This document shows positions 2,872 through 33,613 of a stretch of DNA of 34,982 bases, piece after piece. The notes beneath the pieces were generated by a model. It saw only the letters and a program-made list of their open reading frames with translations, searched no databases and had not been told where the DNA came from. This stretch comes from a bacterium (GTDB taxonomy: Bacteria > UBP6 > JAFGXH01), in assembly GCA_027064085.1 (NCBI GenBank), contig JAMOQH010000138.1, positions 1 through 34,982 on the forward strand, given 5' to 3'. How positions within the stretch are numbered: position 1 is the first letter of the stretch; every line of letters begins with the position of its first letter. The position numbers and the translations under genes are program-made.

Positions 2872-3993
2872 CTAAACAATAACTTCAATAAGTCCTACAT
2901 AAGAACTTATCGTCTCGTTTTCTGAATAGTTAAATTTTTCTTCAATTTCTTGATATTTTTTTCGTTTTTGTTTGCTATTATTAGATTCTGATTCTGAGTT
3001 TGTATTTTTATCAAATGAAAATGATATGTCATTACTTGCTTTTTTGATTTCTGAAAATAGATTTTTAAGAGATGTTTGATTGTTATTTAATAGTTCTAAT
3101 GTTTCGTGTTTTTGTACTTTAATCTCCACCTTTGTACTTTTTTTAATCATTGATATATTAATTTCTAATTTACCCAAATGTTCAGGAGTTAATTTAAGAA
3201 CAACTTGTTTTCTGTTATTTTGGCTCATATATGTAATGGAGTCTTGTAATTGAGTTTTAATAGACTTCATTGTTTTATAATTGTTTGTTTGTGTTTGATT
3301 TATTGATTTATTGATTGCTTTTTGAGTAAAATTATTTTTATTTGATAATAAATTTAGATTTTCTTTAAAATTTAATTTTTCTTTTAAGGAATTATTGATA
3401 TGTTCATTGCTTTTCTTTTTATGTGCAGGTAATTTTATTTCATTTTTAAAAATGGAAGATTTAAGACTAGAATTCTCATTTCTTTCGTTTCTTTCATTTT
3501 TATCATTAAGGGGGTAAGTTTGTGATTTACCTTTATTTGTAGGTTTGGTATTTTTATTTTGAGAGAACTGCTTAGCAAAAATAATATTGGTAAATTCCTC
3601 TCCTTGAGCTTTGCTCAAAAATGAAGTGGGGGCAATAATGTTGACGGGTGCGGGAGTTGTTTCATTTTTTGTTTTTTTGGGTGAGAATATATTTATTTCT
3701 TTTTCACTTTTTATTTTTTTGTTTATTTCTTTCATTATTATAAATTGAAAATCTAGTTCTTTTACTACTTTAGTGTTTTTTTTATTTTTTTTATTTATTA
3801 TATTATGAGGCTCCATAATAGGATGAGGCTGTTTTATGATAGAAGGAGCTGTTGCCTTATCATGGGGATTTGCTGTTTTATTATGACCAACCTTATTAGG
3901 ATTACTCATCACCGCCTTATTGGGACGAGTCACCGCCTCGTCCCTACGGTGGTGGTGACTGTTTTTTTCAATTTTTAATGATGATATGTTCAT
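2872..3993 (-). CDS. fliK: Flagellar hook-length control protein FliK, with an in-frame palindromic insert
   Basis: A 373-residue, Lys/Asn-rich, low-complexity protein. The C-terminal third (about 240-330) matches the FliK/Flg_hook domain, with KQVVLKLTPEHLGKLEINI followed by a helix-rich segment. FliK measures hook length and switches export specificity; its N-terminal part is normally poorly conserved. Position directly before flgD supports the call. An AGGGG ribosome site precedes the ATG at 3993. Residues 18-24 (DEAVTRP) are encoded by a GC-rich palindrome at 3919-3947, and the next residues (NKAVMSNP, NKVGHNKT, NPHDKATAP) look like decayed repeats of the same unit. The insert keeps the frame open and falls in the variable N-terminus. 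The symbol rests on the C-terminal domain and context. Confidence 0.85.
   Translation of the reverse strand: MNISSLKIEKNSHHHRRDEAVTRPNKAVMSNPNKVGHNKTANPHDKATAPSIIKQPHPIMEPHNIINKKNKKNTKVVKELDFQFIIMKEINKKIKSEKEINIFSPKKTKNETTPAPVNIIAPTSFLSKAQGEEFTNIIFAKQFSQNKNTKPTNKGKSQTYPLNDKNERNERNENSSLKSSIFKNEIKLPAHKKKSNEHINNSLKEKLNFKENLNLLSNKNNFTQKAINKSINQTQTNNYKTMKSIKTQLQDSITYMSQNNRKQVVLKLTPEHLGKLEINISMIKKSTKVEIKVQKHETLELLNNNQTSLKNLFSEIKKASNDISFSFDKNTNSESESNNSKQKRKKYQEIEEKFNYSENETISSYVGLIEVIV
3919..3947. repeat. Palindromic element copy A, inside fliK
   Basis: Two 13-nt arms (3919-3931 and 3935-3947) surround a 3-nt loop. The inner eight bases GGGACGAG/CTCGTCCC pair perfectly and the right arm ends CCCTAC. 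On the fliK strand the core reads in frame as DEAVTRP. The element is GC-rich against a strongly AT-rich background. Decayed 21-24 nt relatives (CCTTATT-containing units) extend leftward to about 3850. It belongs to the same family as the copies at 11461-11552, 12000-12027, 18189-18214 and 18295-18315. Confidence 0.8.
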
Positions 3994-11390: not shown

Positions 11391-11460
11391 TGTGCCTCCT
11401 ATTACATCAAAGTATCCACTTGAAAGAATAGCAATTCATTTTCCATATTTTTTATATGCC

Positions 11461-11552
11461 CGTAGAGACAAGGCATTGCCCGTAGAGACAAGGCATTGCC
11501 CGTAGAGACAAGGCATTGCCTTGTCTTTACTTTGGCGTTGCCTTGTCTCTAC
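11461..11552. repeat. Intergenic array of palindromic element halves (copy D)
   Basis: Three exact 20-nt units run 11461-11480, 11481-11500 and 11501-11520, each beginning CGTAGAGAC. The last one continues into its complementary arm, giving a complete hairpin: arm 11502-11514, loop ATT 11515-11517, arm 11518-11530 with one G-U pair. A further right arm, GCCTTGTCTCTAC, lies at 11540-11552 after a shortened left arm (GGC). The whole array fills much of the 197-base tilS-fliO gap, so it could fold into several alternative hairpins or act as a partial terminator. It belongs to the same family as the coding copies, with the stem core GACAAG/CTTGTC. Confidence 0.85.
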
Positions 11553-11587: not shown

Positions 11588-12859
11588 CTATTTTTTGTTA
11601 TGATTTGGATTATAATAATATCCCTTTTCTATAAACGGAATTGCAATAATTTCATTATTTAGGGATAATAAAGGCCATATTTTTCTTAAAAAGATTGGGA
11701 TTTTATGGTCTATAAATATATCCTTCAGTTTTATCTCTTTATTATTGTATTTCTTAAATTTATCTCCATTTGTAAAATTTATTAATTTAATATTTTCATT
11801 TATAAACAAATCATTTAGTTCACAATTTCTAAAAAAACTTATTTTTTCTTTTATTATTTCAAAAAGTTTTTTGGTTTCATCTATTGATAGTATGTTATTA
11901 TTATTTCTATAAATTGCAATATAATTTTTATCTGAATAGAAGTTAATCTCTTTTGTTATTTGAAGTTTTATAGGAGTTGTTGTGAGAGTCATCGCCTTTG
12001 TAGGACGAGTCATCGACTCGTCCGTACAGGCTAGGATTTCGGATATTTTATTGTATGATGTGCTGGTATTGAAAAATTTATATAATATTAAATGTATAAG
12101 CCTATTTTTTATATTATTAGGTAAAGAATTATGGAGATTAATATCAAAAAAAATAAAATCTTTAAAAATATGAAGGTTTTTATCTATAAAATTATTTAAA
12201 ATCCCATCAAAATATTCGTTATCTTTTTTAATTTGTTCCATTAAATTTATAATATGAGTATGTAAATCATAGTTTTCAATATTTAATCTAGGAAGAATTT
12301 CATTTCTTATTTTATTTCTTAAGTATATATTTTGGAAATTAGTTTCATCTTCTATATGTTCTAAATTATGCTTTACTATATAGTTTTTAATATCAGTAGT
12401 TGTAAAATCTAATAACGGCCGGATAATAATATCTCTGTTTTCAGATATTCCTGCTAGTCCACTCAATGAGGTGCCTCTGTATAGTCTTATAAAAAACTGT
12501 TCAATATTGTCACTTTTAGTGTGTGCTGTTGCAATTTTATTATAGTCGTTTTTTTCTGCAATTTGATATAGTGCTTTATATCTTTTTTCTCTTGCGATAG
12601 CTTCAATATTAGAATTTAGATTTTTTAAATTAAGTCTAGTTTCAAAATACTTTATTTTATACTTTTGTGCAATTTTTTTAGAAAATAATGCGTCTTTATA
12701 ACTAGCTTCTCTGATTTGATGGTTTATATGAGCTATTGCTATTTGTTTTTTGTTTACTATCTTTAATAATAAATCAAGTAATACAATAGAGTCTTTACCG
12801 CCTGAAAATGCTATAAGAATTTTATCAGAATCTTTTATAAAAGAAGTATTAAGTTGCAT
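11588..12859 (-). CDS. tilS: tRNA(Ile)-lysidine synthase TilS, with an in-frame palindromic insert
   Basis: The 423-residue protein has the PP-loop signature SGGKDS at residues 19-24 and further TilS motifs: AHINHQIR, ATAHTKSDNIEQFFIRLYRG and RPLLDFTTTDI. TilS modifies the CAU anticodon of tRNA-Ile2 to lysidine using ATP and is essential. The C-terminal domain (about 335-420) includes NFTNGDKFKK and KLKDIFIDHKIPIFLRKIWPL. Residues 280-286 (DESMTRP) come from the palindrome at 12000-12027 and are followed by a decayed second unit (TKAMTLT). The insert falls between the PP-loop/helical part and the C-terminal domain, where extra residues may be tolerated. The reading frame stays intact, so the gene is probably active. 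It starts 15 bases after the lipoprotein at 12875. Confidence 0.95.
   Translation of the reverse strand: MQLNTSFIKDSDKILIAFSGGKDSIVLLDLLLKIVNKKQIAIAHINHQIREASYKDALFSKKIAQKYKIKYFETRLNLKNLNSNIEAIAREKRYKALYQIAEKNDYNKIATAHTKSDNIEQFFIRLYRGTSLSGLAGISENRDIIIRPLLDFTTTDIKNYIVKHNLEHIEDETNFQNIYLRNKIRNEILPRLNIENYDLHTHIINLMEQIKKDNEYFDGILNNFIDKNLHIFKDFIFFDINLHNSLPNNIKNRLIHLILYKFFNTSTSYNKISEILACTDESMTRPTKAMTLTTTPIKLQITKEINFYSDKNYIAIYRNNNNILSIDETKKLFEIIKEKISFFRNCELNDLFINENIKLINFTNGDKFKKYNNKEIKLKDIFIDHKIPIFLRKIWPLLSLNNEIIAIPFIEKGYYYNPNHNKK
12000..12027. repeat. Palindromic element copy B, inside tilS
   Basis: GGACGAGTC (12003-12011) and GACTCGTCC (12015-12023) pair perfectly around the loop ATC. The outer bases GTA and GTAC are remnants of the family ends; the left arm has lost one base relative to the 13-nt form. 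On the tilS strand it encodes DESMTRP. A decayed partner unit (GAGTCATCG shared) lies at about 11985-11999. Confidence 0.82.
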
Positions 12860-18138: not shown

Positions 18139-18871
18139 AAAAGAAGATAAGAAAAAAACAGGAAGAGCAAACAAATACAAAAAGCCTAGTAGGGATAAGT
18201 CGTTGACTTATCCCGATAAAGAGGTGACTTATCCCGATAAAGAGGTGACTTATCCCGATAAAGAGGTGACTTATCCTACTAAGGCTAGCGGCAAGGACGA
18301 GTCGGTGACTCGTCCTGTGAATAAAAAAAATAAAAAAGAAGAGTTAGTAAAAGATAAAACAAGTTTTGACCCATATTACAATAAACAATCTCGTAAATAT
18401 AAAATTACTTGTTTTGTGTGTAAAAAAGAAAAAATGGTTGCTGTTGAACCAATTGAGGGCGTTCCTGTTATTTGTGATGATTGTTTAGTAGAGCTTGAAG
18501 CTAGAAAACTACTAGATCAAGGTGGAGCACAAAAAACCAAAAAACTAAATTGTAAGTGGTGTGGAAAATCCTTTTATGCATTAAATGAATCGTATTTATT
18601 TTGTGATGAATGTTATGACCACTTTTCTCATACAATTAAAGCAAGAGGAAGAGGTTTTGTCTCTTATAAATGTAAAAATTGTGGTGCAGATGGTTGGATA
18701 CACCCAAAAGTCTTGGCAGAAAAGAAAAAAGAAAATGATATGCCTTTATGTAGAGCATGTATGAAAGAAGAAGAGCAAAAAGCTAAAAAAGAAAAGAGCA
18801 AAAGTAGAATCAATAAAGTTAAAAACAGAAAAAATACTTTGTCTACATCCAATAATCCAAAAGATAAATAG
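18116..18871 (+). CDS. Zinc-ribbon protein with a palindrome-derived tandem peptide at its N-terminus
   Basis: The start at 18116 ([14 protein letters not shown]) overlaps the mutase by 23 bases; an ATG at 18077 is possible but has no site. The 251-residue protein is very basic. Residues 27-67 are DKSLTYP, three DKEVTYP repeats, TKASGK and DESVTRP, all encoded by palindromic element DNA. The rest has three zinc-ribbon-like modules: C99/C102 with C120/C123, C146/C149 with C163/C166, and C186/C189 with C212/C215, all CxxC pairs. A nucleic-acid-associated role is suggested by the charge and ribbons, and by truA just downstream, but the function is unknown. The basic C-terminal tail adds to this. 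Confidence 0.8.
18189..18214. repeat. Palindromic element copy C1, inside the zinc-ribbon gene
   Basis: Left arm GTAGGGATAAGTC (18189-18201), loop GTT (18202-18204), right arm GACTTATCCC (18205-18214), ten perfect pairs. In the gene frame the core reads DKSLTYP. The family end TAC is missing here because a tandem unit follows at once, but ATCCTAC reappears at 18273-18279 after the last unit. Confidence 0.85.
18215..18277. repeat. Three 21-nt tandem units encoding DKEVTYP
   Basis: Units run 18215-18235, 18236-18256 and 18257-18277; the first two are identical and the third differs at its last base. Each 21-nt unit equals seven codons and gives DKEVTYP, and each looks like the right half of the neighbouring palindrome plus a changed left half. 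Confidence 0.9.
18295..18315. repeat. Palindromic element copy C2, inside the zinc-ribbon gene
   Basis: GGACGAGTC (18295-18303) and GACTCGTCC (18307-18315) pair perfectly around the loop GGT. It encodes KDESVTRP in frame. Its stem core GACGAG/CTCGTC is shared with the fliK and tilS copies rather than with copy C1 only 80 bases away. Confidence 0.85.
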
Positions 18872-27078: not shown

Positions 27079-27117
27079 GTTTTTTGTTGAATGTTTATTT
27101 ATTTAGTAGGAGATAAA

Positions 27118-28167
27118 ATGTCAAATATTCCAGAAAGATTAATCGATGACGAATCAAGAAAACACTTACAAGAGAGATTTCAAAATGAAATGAAAAATGA
27201 TGTAACAGTTGACTTATTTGTTGGTTCTGATAATGCAGATTATGTTGAATTTACTGAAAAAGTTTTAACAGAACTATCAGAAATAGATTCAAGAATAAAA
27301 GTTAATAAATTTGATATAAGTAGTGATGAAGCTAAAGCAAGAAACTTAGAAACTTCACCAAGTTTAACTATTGGGTGGGATAAAGGTTATAAAGTTGAGT
27401 ATTGGGGAGCACCTGCTGGTTATGAAACAGGTGGATTGATTGAGAGTTTATTATTTGTTTCAAATGAAGCATCAGGTTTATCACAATCTACTTTAGAGAC
27501 TTTAGATTATCTTGATAAAGAAGTTAAATTATATAGTTTCGTAACTCCAACTTGCCCTTATTGTCCACAATCTGCAGTTTTAAATCATAAACTTGCAATT
27601 GCCAAAAAAGGTTTAGTTAGATCTATTTGTGTTGAAGCAAATGAAAATATGGAACTTTCTCAAAAATTTGCTGTTTCTTCAGTTCCTCAGCAAAATATTA
27701 ATGATGATACAGAATCAACAACTGTTGGTGTTCAACCAGAATCATCATATATAGATCAGGTATTATCTTATGGTTCTACTAAGTATGAAGAACTTAAAAA
27801 AATTAAAGAAGAGAAAGAATTAAAAGCAGCTGAATTAGTAGATAATCCTGACTATCCTGTTCAATTAACTGATGCAACTTTTAATGCTGCAGTTAATAAA
27901 TACCCTTTTATTGTTGTTGATTGTTGGGCTGAGTGGTGTAGTCCTTGTAAAATGATTGCTCCGATAGTAGATGATTTATCAAAAGAAAAACAAGGTGAAA
28001 TTGTATTTGGTAAACTAGATACAGATCATAACCCTGCTATTTCAAATCAATTTGGAATCCGTTCAATACCTACTTTAATGGTATTTAAAAATGGTGAAAA
28101 AGTTGGACAAATTGTTGGTGCAAAACCAAAAGCAGCTTTATTAAAAGAGATAGAAGCGTTTAAGTAA
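27118..28167 (+). CDS. Three-domain thioredoxin-fold protein (PDO-like pair fused to thioredoxin)
   Basis: The ATG at 27118 has AGGAG six bases upstream and is preferred over a start 27 bases earlier. The 349-residue protein has three thioredoxin folds. Domain 1 (about 25-125) lacks a CxxC. Domain 2 (about 125-220) has TCPYCPQS and the cis-proline segment VSSVPQ. Together they resemble the glutaredoxin-like protein disulfide oxidoreductase (PDO/NrdH-type) layout. Domain 3 (about 245-349) is a thioredoxin with WCSPCK in place of the usual WCGPCK, and SIPTLMVFKNGEKVG. It has no signal peptide, so it should act in the cytosol. The OsmC gene follows ten bases later, suggesting a thiol-redox pair. 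Confidence 0.85.
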   Translation: MSNIPERLIDDESRKHLQERFQNEMKNDVTVDLFVGSDNADYVEFTEKVLTELSEIDSRIKVNKFDISSDEAKARNLETSPSLTIGWDKGYKVEYWGAPAGYETGGLIESLLFVSNEASGLSQSTLETLDYLDKEVKLYSFVTPTCPYCPQSAVLNHKLAIAKKGLVRSICVEANENMELSQKFAVSSVPQQNINDDTESTTVGVQPESSYIDQVLSYGSTKYEELKKIKEEKELKAAELVDNPDYPVQLTDATFNAAVNKYPFIVVDCWAEWCSPCKMIAPIVDDLSKEKQGEIVFGKLDTDHNPAISNQFGIRSIPTLMVFKNGEKVGQIVGAKPKAALLKEIEAFK

Positions 28168-28176
28168 GGGGTAATT

Positions 28177-28608
28177 ATGGCTGGAAAAAATATTAAAGTG
28201 GATGTTATTCTTGGACAAGGGATGTCATTAATGGGAAAGGCTGATTCTAATCACTGGGTTGCTATGGACGGACCAGCTGATTTCGGTGGTAGTAGTGCAG
28301 GAACAAGGCCTATAGAATTATTTTTAATGGGAGTTGTGGGTTGTACAAGTATGGATGTTATTTCTATTTTACAAAAGAAAAGAGTTCCATATACTGATTT
28401 TAAAGCTCAAGCAACAACTGAAAGAGAAGATAAGCATCCCAAAGTATTTAAATCAGTAAATATTCATTTTCAAATATTTGGAAATGGTATTAAAGAAAAG
28501 GATGTTGCAAGAGCGATTGAATTGTCATCTGAAAAATACTGTGCTGCTTCTGCAATGCTTAAAAAGTCACTTCCTGTTACAACTTCTTACGAGATAATAG
28601 AATCTTAA
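28177..28608 (+). CDS. OsmC family peroxide-detoxifying protein
   Basis: The 143-residue protein matches the OsmC/Ohr superfamily: GTRPIELFLMGVVGCTSMDVISIL with the first cysteine, and SSEKYCAASAMLKKSLPVTTSYEI with the second. These two cysteines reduce organic peroxides in Ohr and OsmC proteins. The pattern is closer to the YhfA-type subgroup than to Ohr. It directly follows the thioredoxin-fold gene (ten-base gap, AAGGGG site), which could supply reducing power. Its stop codon overlaps the stop of the convergent DUF5682-like gene. Confidence 0.9.
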   Translation: MAGKNIKVDVILGQGMSLMGKADSNHWVAMDGPADFGGSSAGTRPIELFLMGVVGCTSMDVISILQKKRVPYTDFKAQATTEREDKHPKVFKSVNIHFQIFGNGIKEKDVARAIELSSEKYCAASAMLKKSLPVTTSYEIIES

Positions 28609-31076
28609 ATTTTAATTAATTTACTTTTTTTAATAAACTTTAAAACTAATTTATCTAATTTTCTACCTATAATTTCGTCTTTAGCTGAGATGTTTTTATT
28701 TATATTATCTATGAAGTCATCTTCTATGTTAAGTATAGATGCTATATTTTTTGCAATTTTGCCTTGCTCTGTTGGAGAGAAAAAAGTAAAAACTTGCTTT
28801 AAATTTGGAATTATCTCTAAAAATTCATCTTCAGTAATTGTTGTAAAAAATTTATTTAATTCTTTGATAAATTCATTGTTGAGTATAAAAATTTCTCTTG
28901 ATACTAAAAATATTCCTTTTAAATATTTTGCAATGTTTTCTCCATTATTTACTCCATTAACAATCTGAATAAAATAAATTAGTATATCCTCCTCTGTAAA
29001 TAGCTTAGAATTATATAATATTCCATCTATAGATCCTAAGACTTGTATATTATCAAAAAGCTTTATTTTTAATGATGTTATAAGTTCTAAAAATTCTTCT
29101 AAAAATTCATTATTATCTACAATAATAGAATAAATGGTTTTTAAATCGCTAGAAAATTGATTTTCTTCTTCTGTGGCTAGCGTATCAATGAAATATAATA
29201 ATTTAATAATTTTATTAAAGGTATTTTCATATATTTCGTTAAATTTATGGTTGTTTTTGTTGTTTTCTACTTTCATAAAATTATGTAAAGATACAAAGCC
29301 TGTGGTTAAAGATGATAACAACATATCATTTTCTAGAATATTTTTTAATTCGATAAATTTTTCATTATGATTTAATTTTATTTCAAGTTTTAGCATATTA
29401 ATATATAAAGAAACTGCAGTTTTAAATAATCTTGTTTCTCTCCATAATTTTTCGAATTTATTTAAAATGGCTTCGTCTATTGTTGCTCCATATAAAGAAG
29501 CTTCTACTAGAGATTCATAAGTATTTACTTTAAGTGAATATTCCCATAATTCTGCTAAATAAGTATTGTTATCATTTAAAAAATTTCCTTTTCCTTCTGT
29601 TGAGGAATATACTTGTTCGTTGTTGCTATAGTTACCTAGTTGTTTATAATTTTTAACAATTAGATTAGCAAAATATATATTTAAAAACACAAGTTTATGC
29701 AAAAAGATAGATTTTTTCTTTTGTGAATCTGTTTTAGTAGGGTAAATGTCAATTCTTTTAATTTCATGGCTCTCTTCAAGCCTATTTTTTTGGAGATTAT
29801 CATGAAAATTCATTAAAATAGGGCTATCTTCTTTTGTATATGGATAATAACCTCTTTTTTGCCCCGTTAAAACCTTATTTAAAGAAATCATAATATGTTG
29901 AATATTGTCATCACCTTTTGCATAAGAAGTAATAATACTATCTATCATTTCTTTAGTTGTAACTGATTTTTTATTTCTTAAATATTTCAGTTCATTCATT
30001 ACTCTAATCGCTTCCATTTTATTTACAATTGTACCACTCTCTCCACCTTTTTTTAATTCTTTATGTAATTTATGCAAAAAACTAATTATCGTTTCTTCAT
30101 AAGGGGAGTTAAAATCACTGTTTTCTTTATTAAAATTTAATAATTTTTTTAATAGTTCGTTATGATATGTAGGAAATATAATTCCTGATTTATAGCCACT
30201 TCTTTCATCAATTCTATCATAAGAATATGGAATAATATAGTTATCAATAGTGCCTTTATCTTTTAACTTAAATTGAAGTTCTTTATGGTCTTGAATAAGT
30301 TTAATTAAAGATGGAGTATGAAAACCTCCAGTAACAACGAGTATTTTGTTATAATTTTTTGAATGTTCAATTATTTTAGAAACCATATAAATTTCTCTAG
30401 CAATATTTCCTTCATTTATCAGAGTTTCAATATCATATGTTTTTCTGGAATAGTAGCAAAATGAATAAAAGTCACTAATAAATTTATTTGGAGTTTTATC
30501 ATGATATGCAGTTTCAAAATAGTTTTCCCATAACTCATTAAAATTTTTAAGTCCTAGTTTTTGGGTAAGTAAATTAATATATTTAGAGTAAGCAATATAA
30601 TTATCATTAACGATTTTTTCATAATTTGTATAGTATTTTTTAAGGTTAATATAATGCAAATCAATAAATTCTGTTCTAATATTATTTTTAAGTCCTTCTT
30701 TCATTGCAATGTATTCAGGAGAAAATTCTGCAAATGGATAATAAACAGCATCCCTAATAATTTCCTTTTTCTTTTTGCCTGTTCCTTCGTCTTCATATTC
30801 AATTTCTTCATTTGAGATACTGTAAAAAGCAAGTGGCATCTTTACATTTTTAGTAAATAATTTTTCTTTAATACTATTGATATTAGAAGGTCCTTCTATT
30901 AAAATTATCTCTGGGGAATATTCTTTTATGAGTTTTGATAATTGAAATGATACAATAGGGCTATGATGTTTAACTGGAAAATATACGATTTTATCTTTTT
31001 TTAGATTTGGGATATAATTTTCATTTAAATTTGATATTGAATTTAGTATTTTTTTATTGTTTAGTATTTTCTCCAT
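28605..31076 (-). CDS. DUF5682-like protein (ChaN/EreA/TraB-type fold)
   Basis: The 823-residue protein has, near the N-terminus, YFPVKHHSPIVSFQLSKLI (His37, His38) and PEIILIEGPSNIN, then YPFAEFSPEYIAMKEGLK, RTEFIDLHY and ILVVTGGFHTPSLIKL (His253). This arrangement matches my recollection of DUF5682 proteins, whose N-terminal part belongs with the ChaN/EreA/TraB group of putative hydrolases. The remaining 500 residues are helical and Lys/Asn/Glu-rich. In other genomes DUF5682 genes usually sit with MoxR ATPase, VWA and SWIM-type genes; none is present here. No signal peptide. A weak AAGGA site precedes the ATG. Confidence 0.75.
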   Translation of the reverse strand: MEKILNNKKILNSISNLNENYIPNLKKDKIVYFPVKHHSPIVSFQLSKLIKEYSPEIILIEGPSNINSIKEKLFTKNVKMPLAFYSISNEEIEYEDEGTGKKKKEIIRDAVYYPFAEFSPEYIAMKEGLKNNIRTEFIDLHYINLKKYYTNYEKIVNDNYIAYSKYINLLTQKLGLKNFNELWENYFETAYHDKTPNKFISDFYSFCYYSRKTYDIETLINEGNIAREIYMVSKIIEHSKNYNKILVVTGGFHTPSLIKLIQDHKELQFKLKDKGTIDNYIIPYSYDRIDERSGYKSGIIFPTYHNELLKKLLNFNKENSDFNSPYEETIISFLHKLHKELKKGGESGTIVNKMEAIRVMNELKYLRNKKSVTTKEMIDSIITSYAKGDDNIQHIMISLNKVLTGQKRGYYPYTKEDSPILMNFHDNLQKNRLEESHEIKRIDIYPTKTDSQKKKSIFLHKLVFLNIYFANLIVKNYKQLGNYSNNEQVYSSTEGKGNFLNDNNTYLAELWEYSLKVNTYESLVEASLYGATIDEAILNKFEKLWRETRLFKTAVSLYINMLKLEIKLNHNEKFIELKNILENDMLLSSLTTGFVSLHNFMKVENNKNNHKFNEIYENTFNKIIKLLYFIDTLATEEENQFSSDLKTIYSIIVDNNEFLEEFLELITSLKIKLFDNIQVLGSIDGILYNSKLFTEEDILIYFIQIVNGVNNGENIAKYLKGIFLVSREIFILNNEFIKELNKFFTTITEDEFLEIIPNLKQVFTFFSPTEQGKIAKNIASILNIEDDFIDNINKNISAKDEIIGRKLDKLVLKFIKKSKLIKI

Positions 31077-32958: not shown

Positions 32959-33543
32959 TTATTTTTTATTTATTTCTACTCTAACATGTTTTCTGATTTC
33001 GTCTAGAGAATGAACTCCAACAAATTTATGTTTAACTATACCATCTCTACCTATTAAAAATAAAGAAGGAAACCCTCTTACTCCATAGGAATTTTCAATT
33101 TTTCTTGTTCCAAGTAGCATTGGATAATTTACACCCATTTTACCCGCAAAATCATCTATTGCTGCAGGCCCTGGAGAGTTACCTGAAGAGTGAATACCAA
33201 TAAGTACAACACCTTCTTTCGAACATTTATTTACAAAAGATGATAATACAGGAATCATTCTTCTACAAGGAGGACACCATGTCCCCCAAAAGTCTACTAA
33301 AACAACCTTACCTTTATAATCAGATAATTTAACTGTATCACCAGTAGTATTTTTTAAGGCAAACTCTGGTGCTTTGAATTCCTTAAAGCTATTTGTTCTT
33401 TTAACAGGCTTTTTAACAGTTTTCTTTTTAACAATTTCTTTTTTAACTGTTGTTGCATTTTCTTTAATATTTTTAGTGTTTTTTTTACTATCACATGAAA
33501 TAAGTGATATTAGAATTATTAATATTGCACTGTACTTTAACAT
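32959..33543 (-). CDS. TlpA/ResA-type thioredoxin lipoprotein
   Basis: The ATG at 33543 has AGGAGG four bases upstream and is chosen over one 17 codons earlier. The 194-residue protein starts MLKYSAILIILISLISC with Cys17 and the next residue Asp, which in E. coli-type sorting favours the inner membrane. A Lys-rich linker leads to a thioredoxin domain: FKAPEFALKNTTGDTVKLSD, GKVVLVDFWGTWCPPCRRMI with the redox motif CPPC, and the cis-proline segment GFPSLFLIGRDG. It would reduce or handle disulfides in the periplasm, fitting a genome rich in cysteine-heavy exported proteins. It lies 88 bases before the EGF-repeat lipoprotein on the same strand. Confidence 0.9.
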   Translation of the reverse strand: MLKYSAILIILISLISCDSKKNTKNIKENATTVKKEIVKKKTVKKPVKRTNSFKEFKAPEFALKNTTGDTVKLSDYKGKVVLVDFWGTWCPPCRRMIPVLSSFVNKCSKEGVVLIGIHSSGNSPGPAAIDDFAGKMGVNYPMLLGTRKIENSYGVRGFPSLFLIGRDGIVKHKFVGVHSLDEIRKHVRVEINKK

Positions 33544-33613
33544 TAGTCCTCCTAAACAATAAGATAAGATAGCATATATATAAAAAATTATCAATATAAG
33601 ATGAATTTAAATT

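Follow-up and report, generated by a model that had tools for sequence, protein, structure and literature searches.

Among the closest described relatives of the protein analysed here are the PDOs, for which passages of PMC7465337 require a CXXC motif in each of two thioredoxin folds; the same passages find PDOs only in thermophiles and state that a PDO stands in for thioredoxin as the acceptor of electrons from thioredoxin reductase. The gene next to it belongs to the OsmC family. In Ohr, a section of PMC5962072 places the catalytic Glu51 ten residues ahead of the peroxidatic Cys61, and parts of PMC8945050 describe the disulfides of Ohr and OsmC as being reduced by lipoylated proteins and not by the thioredoxin or glutathione systems. 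According to those parts of PMC8945050, YhfA lacks the catalytic Arg and Glu and its role is uninvestigated; excerpts of PMC4069020 set YhfA apart as an exception among the thiol peroxidases of the Ohr/OsmC family.

Here we analyse a PDO-like/thioredoxin fusion gene and the OsmC gene that follows it. Both are located in a 34,982-nucleotide stretch of contig JAMOQH010000138.1 from a bacterium of the UBP6 lineage (the whole stretch is referred to below as the window). A preliminary description of this DNA had read the protein as a PDO-type module fused with its presumed reductase partner and, together with OsmC, as a self-contained peroxide-reduction pathway. No paper describing the fusion was found in a literature search (subscription papers and preprints lay outside its reach); the fusion is a conserved, little-known variation on familiar thioredoxin and PDO parts.

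A Fusion of Three Thioredoxin Folds

The reading frame of the fusion gene is open from the ATG at 27091, and its stop codon ends at 28167; an AGGAG sequence (27108–27112) precedes the ATG at 27118, which is likely the start codon (Table 1). The NCBIfam PDO profile TIGR02187 matches residues 11–217 of the product with 203.4 bits (cut-off 185), and the NCBIfam thioredoxin profile TIGR01068 matches residues 251–347 with 132.4 bits (cut-off 96.8). An AlphaFold2 model, built with a 22-row alignment as input, contains three thioredoxin folds (mean pLDDT 93.1, pTM 0.80). The protein has six cysteines (146, 149, 171, 269, 274 and 277) and two CXXC motifs, CPYC at 146–149 and CSPC at 274–277, and no cysteine is present in residues 1–125. 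In domain 3, WAEWCSPC and SIPT supply the WCXPC motif and the cis-proline of a thioredoxin. Profiles, model and cysteine map thus agree with the domain order read earlier from the letters of the sequence, i.e., an inactive thioredoxin fold, a CPYC domain and a thioredoxin with CSPC. Judging by eye from its N-terminus, the protein is probably cytoplasmic. Since full-length relatives with 66–67% identity occur in two genomes of the window's family, a fusion created by chance or by assembly is ruled out; 25 further members of the fusion family were found.

Table 1. Positions in the window of the fusion gene, its domains and the OsmC gene.
Feature	Position	Strand	Basis
PDO-like/thioredoxin fusion gene, 349 aa	27118..28167	+	ORF, start; TIGR02187 and TIGR01068 above cut-off; 25 other members
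Domain 1, thioredoxin fold without active site, about residues 8–118	27139..27471	+	predicted fold; no cysteine in 1–125
Domain 2, thioredoxin fold, CPYC at 27553–27564, about residues 119–220	27472..27777	+	model, motif table
Helical linker, about residues 221–245	27778..27852	+	helix 223–238 in AlphaFold2 model
Domain 3, thioredoxin, CSPC at 27937–27948, about residues 246–349	27853..28164	+	TIGR01068, model, motif table; 4xhm
OsmC-family gene, YhfA-like, 143 aa	28177..28608	+	PF02566; NF008009 best model; 1ml8, 1vla

Likeness to PDOs, AhpF and Thioredoxins

The solved PDO chains named for comparison were those of A. aeolicus (2ayt) and P. furiosus (1a8l). Residues 8–216 of the fusion align with 2ayt (Z 31.6, rmsd 3.4, 220 aligned). 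In contrast to a PDO, the fusion has no CXXC in domain 1 and carries an attached thioredoxin; CXXC in both folds is found in 0 of the 25 readable members, whose domain 1 site is cysteine-free. Because domain 1 is without CXXC, we use the label “PDO-derived” and not “a PDO”. When TIGR02187 was applied to other members, it scored 205.8 bits in L004 and 128.7 bits, under the cut-off of 185, in L019.

Domains 1–2 form a pair of thioredoxin folds, as at the N-terminus of AhpF, and align with two structures of that part of AhpF, 5h29 (Z 26.8, rmsd 1.9, 203 aligned) and 4o5q (Z 25.6). We take the first thioredoxin fold of AhpF to be inactive and the second active, which is the pattern seen in domains 1–2. 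The solved PDO chains outscore AhpF against the fusion (2ayt versus 5h29), and the fusion chain differs from AhpF in having a thioredoxin instead of the flavoprotein part: no Pyr_redox match was found in it with Pfam and NCBIfam profiles, and AhpF-type models stay far below cut-off (TIGR03143, 56.8 vs 687.65 bits; TIGR03140, 38.3 vs 502.9 bits).

Residues 241–349 match the fold of A. fulgidus thioredoxin 3 (4xhm; Z 21.4, rmsd 1.6, 109 aligned), and phmmer likewise finds this solved chain to be the closest one to domain 3 together with a portion of the linker (8.1e-33, residues 221–343, 50% identity). While 4xhm is a standalone thioredoxin, that of the fusion is attached; in many standalone relatives, too, the Pfam or phmmer match to thioredoxin starts within the linker. 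Two archaeal loci (L065 and L079) carry the same two components side by side and unfused, in the order Trx-PDO, with the PDO gene starting right at the end of the thioredoxin gene. The PDO of these loci keeps CEYC in its first fold, whereas domain 1 of the fusion does not.

Distribution of the Fusion and Conservation of Its Sites

Contigs were scanned by exact peptide patterns; of the 162 stretches confirmed, the best 80 were kept, and 22 of these carry the fusion (L001–L022). Genome searches added L084 (from a sample of 28 + 33 genomes) and L130 and L131 (from an 80-genome sample), which, with the window, brings the family to at least 26 members, one of them (L016) cut at its start. The groups named in the titles of fusion-bearing records are Deltaproteobacteria/Syntrophobacterales, Latescibacterota, Omnitrophota, Aminicenantes and Elusimicrobia. 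Titles of assemblies of this kind may be mistaken: L002 (the same as G002), titled Anaeromyxobacter, falls in the window's own family. Among 28 genomes from the phylum of the window, 3 have the full-length fusion, all three from its family; so does 1 of 33 more distant genomes, and other samples give 2/297, 3/193, 3/80 and 3/64 genomes. The samples of 297, 193 and 64 genomes added no member beyond those of the contig scan, and since the samples include the seed genomes, even these low rates lean high. The 297-genome sample held the thioredoxin part alone in 10 further genomes and the PDO part alone in 3. Sampling of genomes therefore leads us to reject the notion of a common architecture, and the earlier remark that the architecture is unusual holds: the fusion is a rare, patchily spread but conserved family in scattered uncultured bacteria.

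According to the motif table, the active-site stretch of domain 1 is free of cysteine in all 25 readable members, the CXXC of domain 2 is kept in 18 of 26, and the CXPC of domain 3 is kept in 26 of 26; the WAEWC.PC columns are invariant in 23 rows of the alignment. The eight members without the domain 2 motif (L013, L014, L015 and L017–L021) all belong to a single nine-member branch (100/99), in which the remaining protein, L008, has CSYC; two losses are required by the tree, and a single loss is possible. L019, one of the eight, is still modelled with three thioredoxin folds (pLDDT 90.3), and positions such as D10, F45, E52, A72, P81, P99, S115, P190, N195, S200 and G204 of domains 1–2 are invariant in all 22 rows of alignment A2. 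Because domain 1 is dead in every readable member, domain 2 has lost its motif in eight and CXPC is universal, the PDO half is decaying towards a scaffold; the thioredoxin is the steady redox site, and the PDO half is losing its chemistry and keeping its shape. This pattern, the principal finding of the analysis, goes against a PDO served by its own thioredoxin. What the preliminary description called a PDO-type module joined to its reductase is indeed a fusion, but the partner role assigned to the thioredoxin is weakened, since eight members have no PDO CXXC and PDO is, according to passages of PMC7465337, served by thioredoxin reductase.

On a thioredoxin tree of 97 rows and 119 columns, whose bootstrap had not settled, the fused and standalone states are separated by three changes, two of which are forced by starred branches, so the PDO half was gained or lost more than once. 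In this tree, standalone thioredoxins from Deltaproteobacteria/Syntrophales are nested next to members of the fusion family.

Genes Beside the Fusion

A gene for a pyridine-nucleotide-disulfide reductase is located directly upstream of the fusion in L004, L005 and L007 and directly downstream in L012, where a gene for an ArsR-type regulator is part of the same cluster (the reductases of L004 and L012 were identified by Pfam, those of L005 and L007 by gene cluster). Each coincides with the single TIGR01292 match (E ≤ 1e-40) of its genome, i.e., the only canonical thioredoxin reductase of the genome adjoins the fusion in at least 4 of the 26 members; the number is a minimum, the upstream region of L016 and most of that of L001 being cut off. 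Within the window, no reductase gene adjoins the fusion/OsmC pair.

An OsmC gene follows the fusion in five of 26 members (the window, L001, L002, L016 and L131): in 3/3 cases in the window's family and in 2/3 in another phylum, the latter assignment being made because the window's family is absent from the 80 genomes sampled. OsmC was not found beside the other 21 members (the contigs of L003 and L007 end within 350 bases downstream), and the idea of an OsmC neighbour common to all members was rejected. The adjacency needs two changes on the tree and appears to exceed chance expectation.

Other neighbours were recorded as well. A Mrp/NifH-type ATPase gene (MinD/Mrp-type, with ferredoxin domains) lies directly 3′ of the fusion in L017, L019, L020 and L021 (identified by Pfam in L017), hinting at iron-sulfur rather than peroxide work next to the branch with a dead domain 2. 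By Pfam, a NifX-type (PF02579) gene is found after the fusion in L010 and near it in L017, and an NADH:flavin oxidoreductase gene near the fusion in L010. The choice of ORFs was poor in the G+C-rich loci L133 and L134.

The Neighbouring OsmC Gene

The OsmC-family gene announced by the preliminary description does follow the fusion, after a gap of 9 bases and not ten. PF02566 matches it with 71.3 bits (cut-off 27.5), and it is the sole PF02566 match in the window genome. NF008009 is by far the best model but, at 115 bits, is under its cut-off of 138, which is why we call the gene YhfA-like. Among solved structures, the closest to its product are 1ml8 (3.9e-28) and 1vla (7.3e-27); we take 1ml8 and NF008009 to stand for YhfA and group 1vla likewise. 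Both cysteines of the family, Cys56 (28342–28344) and Cys122 (28540–28542), are present and invariant in the alignment, and both are conserved among the OsmC neighbours of fusion members. The protein thus shares the two cysteines with Ohr/OsmC, but Ile46 occupies the place of the Ohr glutamate, which in the four other OsmC neighbours is taken by Leu, Ile, Leu and Val. The alignment showing Ile46 covers the chain beyond the mobile loop, the part that carries the catalytic arginine in Ohr/OsmC peroxidases. A DUF5682 gene (28605–31076, minus strand, 221.6 bits) is convergent with OsmC and overlaps it by four bases in the region of its stop codon.

Other Redox Genes of the Window Genome

A canonical thioredoxin reductase (354 bits, over cut-off) is encoded on contig C164, and four standalone thioredoxins are encoded on contigs other than that of the window. 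On contig C84 (locus L116, 3846–5462), a gene resembling the flavoprotein part of AhpF (TIGR03140, 355.5 bits over model positions 204–512, cut-off 502.9) is directly followed by an ordinary PDO with CETC and CPHC (TIGR02187, 261 bits), so that the two make up an AhpF-like split pair. This two-CXXC PDO is present although passages of PMC7465337 limit PDOs to thermophiles. In other genomes (G097, G135 and G200, from the 297-genome sample), PDO-like matches lie inside frames of ~550 aa with one in-frame TGA each, which are possibly selenocysteine forms of a reductase-PDO fusion; part of PMC9312934 lists a selenoprotein under TIGR02187. Contig C95 encodes an AhpC-like peroxiredoxin (PF10417 over cut-off; TIGR03137 168.5 bits, under the cut-off of 272). 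Two lipoyl partners are encoded, GcvH scoring 132 bits and lipoamide dehydrogenase scoring 476 bits, each above its cut-off; a search of the window genome found no 2-oxoacid dehydrogenase E2. With GcvH and lipoamide dehydrogenase present, we rejected the idea that OsmC needs the fusion for want of lipoylated partners. Given the AhpF-like pair, the AhpC-like protein, GcvH and lipoamide dehydrogenase, peroxide could conceivably be handled by a conventional route, and OsmC be reached by a lipoyl route, with no part for the fusion in either. A second thioredoxin-like gene of the window (32959–33594, minus strand) is TlpA/ResA-like with a lipoprotein-like start, as judged by eye and from a weak match.

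Repeats in the Window

A near-palindromic 20-base element, GACGAGKCGRTGACTCGTCC, occurs in exactly three copies, at 3923–3942 (minus), 12003–12022 (minus) and 18296–18315 (plus); in shuffles of the 28.6% G+C window no such triple occurrence is expected. Each copy lies in frame inside one of three unrelated genes (FliK-like, TilS-like and a zinc-ribbon-like ORF, named by eye), so that the element looks like a mobile repeat inserting into coding frames. None of the 143 fetched loci, few of which are from this genome, contains an exact match. Next to the third copy, a perfect tandem array (18204–18276; 3.5 copies of a 21-base unit) codes for repeated TYPDKEV; another perfect array (11457–11520; 3.2 copies of a 20-base unit) lies between two genes.

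Discussion

With a rough probability of 0.5, we propose that the fusion is a disulfide reductase driven by thioredoxin reductase, in which the domain 3 thioredoxin is mounted on a PDO-derived (pseudo-PDO) scaffold. NADPH would reduce thioredoxin reductase, which would then reduce the CSPC of domain 3, and domain 3 would in turn reduce disulfides of client proteins. The CPYC of domain 2 would be a second, expendable site, relaying or resolving, and domains 1–2 would dock the reductase or the clients, a putative role suggested by the persistence of their modelled fold where active sites have been lost. Two facts speak against a reductase-driven protein: the C164 reductase gene is not beside the fusion, and the four standalone thioredoxins could be the main partner of that enzyme. 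In the 18 members with an intact domain 2, a relay role is possible. In two lineages, the YhfA-like OsmC is a possible, perhaps likely, client or partner of the fusion.

An obligatory relay of the AhpF kind, with electrons passing in-chain between the CPYC of domain 2 and the CSPC of domain 3, would agree with the alignment to 5h29 and with the domain 2 motif intact in 18 members; we consider it rather unlikely, because the eight members that lost this motif keep domain 3, so that the relay is not obligatory family-wide, and because PDO chains score above AhpF. Domains 1–2 might also be a passive relic, the protein being one more thioredoxin and OsmC being co-transcribed without direct contact. 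The progressive loss of PDO sites fits this, as does the nesting of standalone thioredoxins beside fusion members, which shows that gain or loss of the PDO half is possible (in a tree of few columns with an unsettled bootstrap), but the invariant columns of domains 1–2 (22 rows) and the confident L019 fold exceed what is expected of a relic, which makes this explanation unlikely.

A route from thioredoxin reductase through the fusion and OsmC to peroxide, the mechanism of the preliminary description, appears to us largely wrong or unproven, and we judge it improbable. The short gap, the recurrence of the adjacency in the two relatives from the window's family and in L016 and L131 of another phylum, and the conserved pair of OsmC cysteines argue for it. 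“Self-contained” hardly describes a pair that has no adjoining reductase in a genome with a separate AhpF-like pair and an AhpC-like peroxiredoxin. Moreover, the Ohr glutamate is replaced in all five OsmC neighbours, 21 members have no OsmC found beside them, and YhfA is, in the sections cited above, excepted from the thiol peroxidases (PMC4069020) and devoid of Arg and Glu (PMC8945050), which also assigns the reduction of Ohr/OsmC to lipoylated proteins; GcvH and lipoamide dehydrogenase are encoded in the genome, though no E2 was found. It is even more doubtful that the protein really acts on sulfur (persulfides or polysulfide) and not on peroxide. Several record titles (Zod, SulCav) suggest, by their names, sulfidic habitats, and a portion of PMC6981617 reports that the PDO of Thermococcus onnurineus is SurR-regulated and raised during growth on sulfur, but the same portion reports that the Palaeococcus homologue is not raised by sulfur.

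Finally, the fusion could be a pseudo-enzyme adaptor carrying a thioredoxin: the PDO sites would have died, one and then both, the folds would have stayed on as a platform for docking, and the thioredoxin would, in two phyla, have become dedicated to a YhfA-type OsmC. We hold this to be quite unlikely; if true, it would make YhfA thioredoxin-dependent, unlike the lipoyl-dependent Ohr and OsmC. The fusion/OsmC pairing offers a genomic clue to what YhfA-type OsmC proteins do, and the fusion family itself is a series provided by nature: a disulfide enzyme with two sites sheds them stepwise while its folds persist beside a thioredoxin.
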